This document shows, piece after piece, positions 36,012-39,091 of a stretch of 43,142 nt of DNA. The stretch's first letter is position 1, and each line of letters opens with the position of its first letter. The DNA is taken from assembly GCA_003702495.1 (NCBI GenBank), contig REGH01000006.1, positions 1 to 43,142 on the forward strand, written 5' to 3'. This stretch comes from Candidatus Nitrosopumilus sp. GTDB taxonomy: Archaea > Thermoproteota > Nitrososphaeria > Nitrososphaerales > Nitrosopumilaceae. Under the pieces are notes generated by a model, which saw only the letters and a list, made by a program, of their open reading frames with translations, did no database searches and had not been told where the DNA came from. The translations under genes were made by a program, and so were the position numbers.

Positions 36012-37142
36012 TTAGGATTCACATCCAATTCCATCTTGGTCCCCATCAAAGTTATGAGGATCAGGAGGTAAAACGGTGAATTTCTTGTATACAACATCAA
36101 CGCAATTCAAGTCTGGTGGAGGAGATGTAATACAAAAGTCTGGATACGATGGATCACAGTTTGTTTGATCCTCTAGAACAGGGGTTGATGCTGGAATGTG
36201 TTGGCAGCCGTGTTTTTGAGCCCAAGAAATATGTTCAAACTCCGATTGTCCACAGAATTCTGTACTCAAGTATCCTAATCCAGAATCTAACAATTCTTCA
36301 TTGAGGGATAATCCATTACAGTATACCACACCAAGCATTCTTCCATAACTTCCTTCAGTTTGTTTGTCATCCTCATCAACCAATACAAAGGAGTCAATTG
36401 GGCAGATTGTTTGAATGAAATTTCTAGCATCAATACCGTTTATTTCATCTAGTTCCGGCGCAGAAGCCAAAGTGAATCGAATTGATTTTCCATCAACATG
36501 AATTGTATCACCGTCAACTATTCTAGTTACAAATCCAGTTAGACATTCAGCATATCCAATACACTCATCAGGATTTGGAAAATTTCTGAATTCACGTTTT
36601 GGAGGTTCAACATAACATTCACCACGATGCTTCATTGCCATGTGTTCTGCATTCAAACTACAAAGATTGCCATAAGTTACTCCATTAACTCCGCACACAG
36701 GATTGTACTCCATGGTGCATGCAATTGGTGGCTTTTCAGAATACCAACCGCGTTGTTGCATCTTTTCAACTGATTTCGCATTGACGCAAGCTGGAGTTGC
36801 ATCATGTTTGAACATCAAATGTTTTCCTTCAAGACAAATTACATTCTCAGCTGAAATTCCTGCAAACTTTTGGTGATGTGGTCGCAAGTATTCTTTGATT
36901 ACCCCATCCATCATACACAGCCTTCCAGCATATGCCCCAGGTCCACATCTATCATCTAAAACACACATTCCATCAAGAGATGCAAAACCAGGTGCACACA
37001 TCCCCATATAGGAGCGATGATGGTTGCTCATATCATTCATCATTCCAGGATTACCAGAGTACTCAGGATGAGATGGTGCAAAGATAGGAGCTGGAGTTAA
37101 CAAAACAAATGCAATCACGGCAATTAAAACAGTATTCAACAA
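36012..37142 (-). CDS. Secreted Kazal-like / staphylococcal-nuclease fusion
   Basis: 376 aa, TTG start (TATA-like CTTAATTGAG about 24-27 nt upstream). Seen: signal peptide (about 1-22); Cys-rich region (45-80); a C...RGW module (103-133); a Kazal-like domain 142-176 (Cys142, Cys150, Cys161, Cys176 around NPVCGVNGVTYGNLCSL); an SNase domain about 202-297 with Asp210, Asp212, Arg222, Glu230, Arg268 matching the catalytic Arg35/Glu43/Arg87 and metal Asp19/Asp21 of staphylococcal nuclease (Asp40 is Ser here); a C-terminal excalibur-like end (FDGDQDGIGCES). Predicted extracellular nuclease; the Kazal part may inhibit or only scaffold. Confidence 0.88.
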   Translation of the reverse strand: MLNTVLIAVIAFVLLTPAPIFAPSHPEYSGNPGMMNDMSNHHRSYMGMCAPGFASLDGMCVLDDRCGPGAYAGRLCMMDGVIKEYLRPHHQKFAGISAENVICLEGKHLMFKHDATPACVNAKSVEKMQQRGWYSEKPPIACTMEYNPVCGVNGVTYGNLCSLNAEHMAMKHRGECYVEPPKREFRNFPNPDECIGYAECLTGFVTRIVDGDTIHVDGKSIRFTLASAPELDEINGIDARNFIQTICPIDSFVLVDEDDKQTEGSYGRMLGVVYCNGLSLNEELLDSGLGYLSTEFCGQSEFEHISWAQKHGCQHIPASTPVLEDQTNCDPSYPDFCITSPPPDLNCVDVVYKKFTVLPPDPHNFDGDQDGIGCES

Positions 37143-37174: not shown

Positions 37175-37777
37175 CTAGAAACTATTTTCAAATGCTACTT
37201 CATTCAAAGGCAGTTGACCGCCACGTTTTGGTGCATCTGCTGTTCTTTTTCCAACTACAACCATCATGACGATAAGATGGTCCTCTGGCAAATTGATAAC
37301 GTTGGCCAATTTATCATAATCAAAGCCCACCATAGGACAAGAATCAAGCCCCATATCACGAGCTGCAAGCATAATGGTTTGAGCTGCCATACCACAAGAG
37401 CGAATTGCTTCATCTCTTTGTGCTTGAGTATCTTTAGAGTACTTTCTCTCAAGACTAGCTTTTACAAGTTCTTGTTTTTCAGGTGGATGATGCTTCCAAT
37501 AACGTACTGGATTAGTCTTCCATGCAGTCATATCACCACACAGTACAACAACTAGGGAACTGTCTTTTGGTTGAGCTTGCCCTCTAGCAGCTTCTGAAAT
37601 TTTCTCTTTGATTTCTTGATCAGTTACATAGACAAATCTCCAGTTTTGTTGGTTGTAACTGGTTGGAGATAGTATAACATGTTCCATGAGTCTTTTGATA
37701 TCATCAGAACTCATCTTGTGATTTGGATCAAATTTTTTGATTGCACGTCTTGTAGATACTGCTTCAAAAACATCCAT
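37175..37777 (-). CDS. Nitroreductase-family flavoprotein
   Basis: FMN-dependent NAD(P)H oxidoreductase. Seen: VSTRRAIKKFDPN (FMN phosphate site), LSPTSYNQQNWRFVYVTD, GMAAQTIMLAARDMGLDSCP (dimer/FMN), and VVVGKRTADAPKRG near the end; 200 residues, normal length. Substrate unknown. ATG 37777 with TAATTTATTT (about 37801-37810) about 27 nt upstream. The hairpin-repeat array lies beyond that promoter. Confidence 0.92.
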   Translation of the reverse strand: MDVFEAVSTRRAIKKFDPNHKMSSDDIKRLMEHVILSPTSYNQQNWRFVYVTDQEIKEKISEAARGQAQPKDSSLVVVLCGDMTAWKTNPVRYWKHHPPEKQELVKASLERKYSKDTQAQRDEAIRSCGMAAQTIMLAARDMGLDSCPMVGFDYDKLANVINLPEDHLIVMMVVVGKRTADAPKRGGQLPLNEVAFENSF

Positions 37778-37828
37778 AGAATTAATCCATTCTTTATCTA
37801 AAATAAATTAAACGAAAAGACAATCGAG

Positions 37829-37950
37829 ATTAAGACCAAGACCAAAAGTGTCTTGATGACATCCCTTATCACTTAAGATCAGAAACTATTGTCCTCTGAT
37901 GACAGTGATTTCATCTTAAGGTCTGAAACGATTGTTCTCAGACGACAGAC
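37829..37950. ncRNA. Three-copy 43-bp hairpin repeat array (candidate RNA)
   Basis: Three units with exact 43-bp period: TTAAG at 37830, 37873, 37916 and (T/C)GACA at 37857, 37900, 37943. Each unit is a hairpin on the same axis: CAAGAC/GTCTTG (37837-37842, 37850-37855), ATCAGA/TCTGAT (37878-37883, 37895-37900), GTCTGA/TCAGAC (37921-37926, 37938-37943). Units 2 and 3 differ at six of 34 positions; four of these form two compensatory base pairs and two lie in the loop. No reading frame. A possible end is AGACttGTCT followed by TTTCTT (37947-37962). Direction unknown; plus is favoured by the T-run. Confidence 0.6.
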
Positions 37951-38044
37951 TTGTCTTTTCTTAACAACTTTATGTGAATTTGATATTTAACCGGTACTAA
38001 TGATTTCTACTAGTGGCAAATGACGTGAACAAATTCAGATAGTC

Positions 38045-38077: not shown

Positions 38078-39091
38078 TTGAAGATTGCAGTAATGGGAAT
38101 GGGAGTAGCAGGTTCCTATCTAATGGCCAGACTCAAAGATTCTGAACATGACGTTACAGGATATGAGTTGAATCCAAAAGAGAGACATGACTCTATTTGT
38201 GCATGGGGTACAATCAAGCCAATACTTACTGAATACTGCAAAAAGACTGGCAGAGATTTTAACGACTTTCTAATTCATGATGGAAAAAACATGCATGTCA
38301 AAATGAACAATGATGTAAAGTTTGACATTGGGTTGCATGGATTATGTACATACGACAAAATTGGTCTAATCAAAGATTTCATTAAAGATTCTAAAATTAT
38401 CTACGGTAAGCCACCATCACTTGAAGAATTAGAAAAAGAGTATGACATGATAGTTGATTGTACTGGATTTCACAGAGTGTACTTGCCAAAACTCAAAGAA
38501 GATTTCTTTTTGCCAACATATGAATACAAAGTAGAATATGAAAATGGAGTTCCATATGATGACTTTTACATAGAGCCATTTCCTGGAATGTCGGGATATT
38601 TTTGGTATTTCCCATTAGGAGAGAATTGGGCCCACATTGGTGCTGGAGATTACAATAAGAATCACATCAAAGCGACAGATGAATTCTTGAAAAAACACGG
38701 GGGTAAAGTTCTCAAGACAAAAGGAAGACCAATCAGATTGGCAACTCCAGATAGATGTAAGCCATACTATTCAGGCAAAGTAGTAGGGGTTGGAGAATCA
38801 ATTGGAACTGTATATGCATTGTTAGGAGAAGGAATCATTCCATCAATGCAATGTGTAGAGTTATTCTTAGAGAACATGAATGATTTCAAGGCATATGAAA
38901 AGGCAGTAGAAGAGCACTACAAAGTATATGCCAAGGTTTTCAATTTTGTTAGGGCAAAAATCAAAAAAGATTTCAATTTCTTCAAATCACTTCCAGACTT
39001 TATAGCAATCTTCCGTTACATGAAAAAGAACGAAGATAGGTTTGGAATGGACATCAAAATTGCAGACTTGATGAAAGTAGCTAAAGCCTAA
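38078..39091 (+). CDS. FAD-dependent reductase, geranylgeranyl-reductase-like
   Basis: Seen: Rossmann FAD motif MKIAVMGMGVAGSYLMARL at the very N-terminus, which requires the TTG start; YDMIVDCTGFHRVYLPK (second FAD contact); a substrate-domain segment PFPGMSGYFWYFPLGENWAH with GAGDYN; and VVGVGESIGTVYALLGEGI, the GD/GE FAD-phosphate motif near the C-terminal third. 337 residues. This layout matches the GGR family that saturates isoprenoid lipid chains. The reaction is inference. The stop overlaps the convergent YkgJ-like stop. Confidence 0.85.
   Translation: MKIAVMGMGVAGSYLMARLKDSEHDVTGYELNPKERHDSICAWGTIKPILTEYCKKTGRDFNDFLIHDGKNMHVKMNNDVKFDIGLHGLCTYDKIGLIKDFIKDSKIIYGKPPSLEELEKEYDMIVDCTGFHRVYLPKLKEDFFLPTYEYKVEYENGVPYDDFYIEPFPGMSGYFWYFPLGENWAHIGAGDYNKNHIKATDEFLKKHGGKVLKTKGRPIRLATPDRCKPYYSGKVVGVGESIGTVYALLGEGIIPSMQCVELFLENMNDFKAYEKAVEEHYKVYAKVFNFVRAKIKKDFNFFKSLPDFIAIFRYMKKNEDRFGMDIKIADLMKVAKA

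Follow-up and report, generated by a model that had tools for sequence, protein, structure and literature searches.

A predicted triple-hairpin RNA with a near-invariant internal loop in Nitrosopumilus and related archaea

Sponge RNAs of the CsrB/CsrC/RsmZ type, known from bacteria, carry several copies of one protein-binding hairpin, and the same site can occur singly elsewhere. In archaea, H/ACA guide RNAs are encoded by stand-alone genes and have one to three hairpins, in which an internal feature is conserved. At the level of single motifs, an internal loop named UAA/GAN was reportedly described by Lee, Gutell and Russell in 2006. Ammonia-oxidizing archaea of the family Nitrosopumilaceae are among the most abundant cells of the ocean; almost no description of their regulatory RNAs was found in the open literature that we searched.

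We analysed a contig of Candidatus Nitrosopumilus sp. (Nitrosopumilaceae; contig REGH01000006.1 of assembly GCA_003702495.1, 43,142 nt, the whole of which is referred to as the window) and report a predicted triple-hairpin RNA, called T RNA, whose units share one asymmetric internal loop. Like CsrB, CsrC and RsmZ, T RNA repeats a single hairpin module that also stands alone elsewhere, and it meets the Csr/Rsm-like criterion that a site is present several times within one RNA and also occurs alone. It differs from them in being archaeal, in lacking the GGA loop motif of Csr/Rsm sites, in repeating an internal loop and in having no known partner protein. With archaeal H/ACA guides it shares one to three hairpins, a conserved internal feature and stand-alone genes. 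An H/ACA RNA was nevertheless rejected: the internal loop is constant at all loci and not target-specific, no conserved ACA follows each hairpin (it is missing after units B and C), there is no Rfam match, and the UNUC/CUUAA loop is not a kink-turn, being without tandem G.A pairs.

The initial annotation had placed three hairpins at 37829-37950, with TTAAG and GACA recurring at an exact 43-bp period. Both motifs are found at that spacing (TTAAG at 37830, 37873 and 37916; GACA at 37858, 37901 and 37944), and the 43-bp array was also detected by Tandem Repeats Finder; the period is exact in the window only, the spacing shifting by a few bases in relatives. The stems read as claimed (ATCAGA 37878-37883 with TCTGAT 37895-37900; GTCTGA 37921-37926 with TCAGAC 37938-37943; CCAAGACC 37836-37843 with GTGTCTTG 37848-37855 in the unit then numbered 1), and four of the six differences between the former units 2 and 3 can be read directly as two compensatory pairs. 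TTAAG and GACA do not merely flank the hairpins, however, but face each other in a conserved internal loop with an outer stem beyond it, and the element is larger than the three hairpins. It extends over 37812-37963 (Table 1) and includes the outer stems together with a closing stem, P1, that had gone unmentioned. In the alignment of relatives, each unit is built of an outer stem, an asymmetric internal loop (U-N-U-C facing C-U-U-A-A on the RNA strand) and an inner stem, and in 76 distinct sequences the loop is near-invariant except for the free N. P1 is a 10-bp perfect inverted repeat around all three units, with which T RNA would fold as a four-way junction. No ORF of at least 40 aa overlaps the element. 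Folded on either strand, it has a z-score of about -4.3, and none of 200 dinucleotide shuffles folds as well.

Table 1. Predicted features of the T RNA locus and its neighbours, in window coordinates.
Feature	Position	Strand	Evidence or remark
Whole triple-hairpin RNA (T RNA), ~150 nt	37812-37963	-	covariance model R1 full-length, 149.9 bits, E 8.9e-35; 78 loci aligned
P1 closing stem, RNA 5' arm GAAAAGACAA	37951-37960	-	perfect 10-bp complement of 37814-37823
P1 closing stem, RNA 3' arm UUGUCUUUUC	37814-37823	-	partner of 37951-37960
Hairpin unit A, first in the RNA (formerly unit 3)	37912-37951	-	unit model R2, 48.1 bits, E 3.0e-8
Hairpin unit B (formerly unit 2)	37869-37908	-	R2, 51.2 bits, E 4.6e-9
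Hairpin unit C (formerly unit 1)	37826-37865	-	R2, 39.7 bits, E 3.8e-6
Unit A internal loop	UGUC 37944-37947 / CUUAA 37916-37920	-	UNUC/CUUAA near-invariant in relatives
Unit B internal loop	37901-37904 / 37873-37877	-	UNUC/CUUAA near-invariant in relatives
Unit C internal loop	37858-37861 / 37830-37834	-	UNUC/CUUAA near-invariant in relatives
Dedicated promoter CACTAGTAGAAATCATTAGTACCGGTTAAATATC	37982-38015 (minus strand reads 38015-37982)	-	location; conservation in relatives
TATA element	~37983-37991	-	transcription start ~37960 (inferred)
U-rich 3' tract	37790-37813	-	probable transcription end ~37800; overlaps nitroreductase TATA region
Nitroreductase family gene	37175-37777	-	PF00881, E 1.3e-33; neighbour, not always beside the RNA
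FAD-dependent oxidoreductase, geranylgeranyl-reductase-like	38078-39091	+	weak Pfam matches; divergent from the RNA, syntenic

With a covariance model of the triple element (R1, ten sequences) we aligned 78 loci (alignment A3) and, as A3 is structure-fitted, made a second alignment of 33 sequences with plain MAFFT from sequence only (A1). In A3, changes on both sides were found at 49 of the 51 pairs and 91.9% of the cells were paired; the observed values were reached by none of 500 shuffles, and the covariation score was 0.359 as compared with at most 0.077 when partners were slid. A1 gave double changes in 21 of 41 pairs (0/500 shuffles; 0.234 against at most 0.058 slid), and unconstrained RNAalifold on this alignment returned the same three units. 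In the covariance-model alignment, each of the 10 pairs of P1 has double changes, and the P1 arms complement the partner from their own locus better than swapped arms, with an observed mean reached by none of 300 shuffles. Shuffle tests are inflated by the relatedness of the sequences, which the slid controls preserve. The G.U and covariation counts of A3 come from a structure-fitted alignment, a bias that A1 and the slid controls reduce and do not remove. Conserved stems with compensatory changes, the criterion for a structured non-coding RNA, are thus present. The initial annotation had proposed a new structured RNA, to be checked by a covariance model, a search of relatives and a covariation analysis, and to be abandoned if the stems decayed or the region was absent in relatives. 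Its proposal withstood this check, as the stems are compensated and not decaying, the segment folds beyond chance, and the triple element is conserved and syntenic, being kept in 72 of the 95 genomes of the genus (221-bp query).

The strand, which had been left open, was assigned to minus because wobble pairs appear there as G.U, and because of the promoter orientation. On this strand A3 contains 278 G.U against 59 C.A, and the core stems of A1 contain 66 against 5 (p 1e-14; 22 pairs favour G.U and one C.A). Other loci carrying the unit, described below, lean the same way (26:6 for class S2, 23:4 for multi-unit loci); for class S1 the numbers (5:3) are too small to judge. No such asymmetry is expected for a cruciform, an operator or another role of duplex DNA, which are thereby disfavoured, and of the earlier alternative between RNA structure and cruciform only the former is retained. 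The asymmetry and the promoter also rule out the plus-strand reading, in which the loop reads UUAAG/GANA with N free, like the UAA/GAN motif, and units B and C carry a C-box-like TGATGA. Pairing asymmetry puts the RNA on the other strand, with UNUC/CUUAA as its loop. As a short stand-alone RNA whose units B and C carry TGATGA on the plus strand, T RNA resembles archaeal box C/D sRNAs, but the RNA strand is minus and A1 has no conserved RUGAUGA/CUGA pairs there, so this class was rejected as well. Judged from the comparative evidence alone, the segment 37812-37963 almost certainly encodes a structured RNA on the minus strand.

No match reached the Rfam 15 gathering threshold in the whole window, nor at the other loci of the unit, with the exception of one tRNA elsewhere in the stretch L183. 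Near-matches to BTnc231, MIR1886 and snR75 at the element, and to the fluoride riboswitch just beside it, all scored far below gathering and were discarded. No earlier description of this RNA was found in the open-access literature, to which the search was restricted; a prior description elsewhere is not excluded. The RNA family is new and absent from Rfam, while a multi-hairpin small RNA is not unprecedented as a kind.

The divergent oxidoreductase gene adjoins the element, which lies upstream of it, at nearly all loci with enough flank. On the other side, the nitroreductase gene starts about 35 nt downstream of T RNA in the window and lies close to it in many relatives, a position compatible with a cis-acting leader of this gene, riboswitch-like or attenuator, made of three tandem aptamers. 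The gene is missing, however, at many relatives' loci where T RNA is still kept and the U-tract is stronger, and single units have varied neighbours. Those of class S1 even lie opposite the end of the adjacent gene, in antisense orientation. The criterion of a riboswitch or leader class, a conserved downstream gene on the same strand, is not met, and we regard a nitroreductase leader, rejected by synteny, as very unlikely.

From the promoter at 38015-37982, the RNA would start near 37960 and would end near 37800 at the U-rich tract, both ends being inferred. This tract follows P1 in all relatives listed and is strongest where the nitroreductase is absent. S2 genes have a promoter block similar to that of T RNA, with a TATA-like element in 33 of 34 loci and a modal spacing of 26 nt to the hairpin. 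When four genomes were searched for the combined T/S2 promoter element with up to 3 mismatches, nine matches were recovered, all of them preceding a T or S2 RNA; the controls had no match. The S1 promoter differs and was matched once in each of three genomes out of six searched, at the S1 locus. Synteny, promoter and U-rich 3' tract argue for a stand-alone RNA and not a nitroreductase leader, and T RNA is very probably a stand-alone non-coding RNA gene, with transcription, start and end predicted in the absence of transcript data.

Elsewhere in the window, a 376-aa ORF (36012-37142, minus strand) has Kazal-type protease-inhibitor and staphylococcal-nuclease-like Pfam matches. Both contig ends (1-162 and 43028-43142) consist of tandem repeats of 18 bp and 21 bp, which probably caused the assembly to stop.

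Isolated single units were picked up by model R1. With a model of the unit alone (R2, 41 positions), it was detected in 83 of 95 genus genomes, at 1-21 copies each and commonly 3-8. Besides the three units of T RNA, the window's genome contains a single unit at C64:58625 and a weak copy that appears to have decayed. Its S1 copy (L182:1501-1541, that is G000:C84:16732-16772) reaches 28.7 bits only, with a mismatched outer stem, and looks like a decaying copy. Three classes were distinguished. The triple RNA, class T, is found in the genus of the window and, with the same neighbours, in genus g4. Class S1 is a single unit that mostly occupies one recurring locus and has the extended stem GCAAA.GAGC/GCUC.UUUGC, and class S2 is a dispersed single unit with the extended stem AUUG-GARC/GYUC-CAAU. 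The neighbour genes of single units differ. In genera g18, g19 and g22, two- or three-unit versions were recognized by eye at other loci, several of them closed by a P1-like stem that differs in sequence. A second multi-unit RNA of genome G073 (L163:1501-1623) has two units, a different middle segment and a P1-like closing stem, GAAAGGTTT/AAACCTTTC. In a rare variant (L108:290-400 and L227:5420-5520), one unit is joined to a second strongly conserved hairpin, GGTTCAGRCCCGAGGGGAAACTCAAGTCTGARC, which has no Rfam match and was not found in 61 family genomes.

Across the order, 63 of 64 unit-positive genomes belong to the Nitrosopumilaceae, and 11 genera are positive altogether; the lone genome labelled as another family (G368) may reflect contamination, as in mislabelled MAGs. 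Some complete Nitrosopumilaceae genomes have no detectable unit, which indicates that it is not universally needed. A strict pattern searched against 84,980 species genomes matched 82 stretches, almost all labelled as belonging to the Nitrosopumilaceae group. MAGs labelled Proteobacteria, Nitrososphaeraceae and Phycisphaerae (L213, L217, L228, L230) were dismissed as carriers from other lineages, since similarity to Nitrosopumilaceae loci extends over 0.7-3 kb of their contigs; judging from this similarity, binning contamination is probable. The same pattern had no match in 2.9 million viral contigs, and a viral or mobile carrier was rejected.

Several genomes have 14-21 unit copies, and in G035 two identical S2 genes lie inverted 1.9 kb apart (L175 and L179; C1:561146 and 563024), hinting at recent spread. 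Dispersion at up to 21 copies per genome, and this equal-scoring inverted pair, would also suit hairpins acting as DNA, be it as operator, cruciform, terminator or mobile repeat. Such a DNA element is hardly credible given the excess of G.U over C.A, unexpected for double-stranded DNA, the correctly spaced TATA element at nearly every S2 copy, the synteny of the triple form across the genus and the lack of copies in viral contigs.

What would an RNA of this kind do? Across classes and genera the UNUC/CUUAA loop is constant and both flanking stems vary, the pattern of a recognition site: the loop would be held between stems that are free in sequence as long as they are paired. Most likely, by inference and without an identified partner, a lineage-specific RNA-binding protein would recognize this loop. 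T RNA would then serve that protein as a trivalent scaffold or sponge, and single-hairpin RNAs made from promoters of the same type would be monovalent versions of T RNA. Binding of a protein is favoured because RNAs sharing a promoter present this loop one, two or three times. An RNA that binds a small molecule or a metal, or a ribozyme, in either case independent of a protein, would also account for repeated modules and for an internal loop that is compact and invariant apart from one free nucleotide, which is probably flipped out; as no linked gene set names a ligand or an output and no Rfam aptamer or ribozyme matches, we consider it improbable. Stand-alone genes with their own promoter would likewise be expected of a trans-acting antisense small RNA, its hairpins being stable handles and its single-stranded or loop segments pairing with target mRNAs, and the apical AAC-UAAUC-GUU is conserved in unit A and in the single-unit RNAs. 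The linkers, like the apical loops of B and C, differ freely from species to species, though, and the constant part is the internal loop, which leaves little free sequence, so that an antisense role appears rather unlikely. Since it is conserved in the singles, the apical loop may be important too, alongside the internal one.

The explanation as a whole, a stand-alone minus-strand RNA of about 150 nt whose loop most likely binds a protein and which serves as scaffold or sponge, is the one we moderately favour, transcription and function being inferred. Structure, strand and conservation, and the sharing of module and promoter, rest directly on sequence evidence. Taken by itself, the inferred protein-binding step with T RNA as trivalent scaffold or sponge is about evenly balanced. 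By analogy, T RNA may work like the Csr-type sponge RNAs, no partner having been identified.

Because the family is absent from Rfam, annotation pipelines miss it. Its covariation is convincing, it has several gene copies and a private promoter, and its recognition loop is defined, which makes its expression, structure and partner directly testable. More tentatively, and as a possibility that we hold to be doubtful, these RNAs could form a dedicated RNA regulon of the Nitrosopumilaceae, in which a transcription factor drives only them through the private promoter element and all of them show one module, in one to three copies per RNA, to one RNA-binding protein. If this is true, the main ammonia oxidizers of the ocean would have an archaeal equivalent of control by sponge RNAs.
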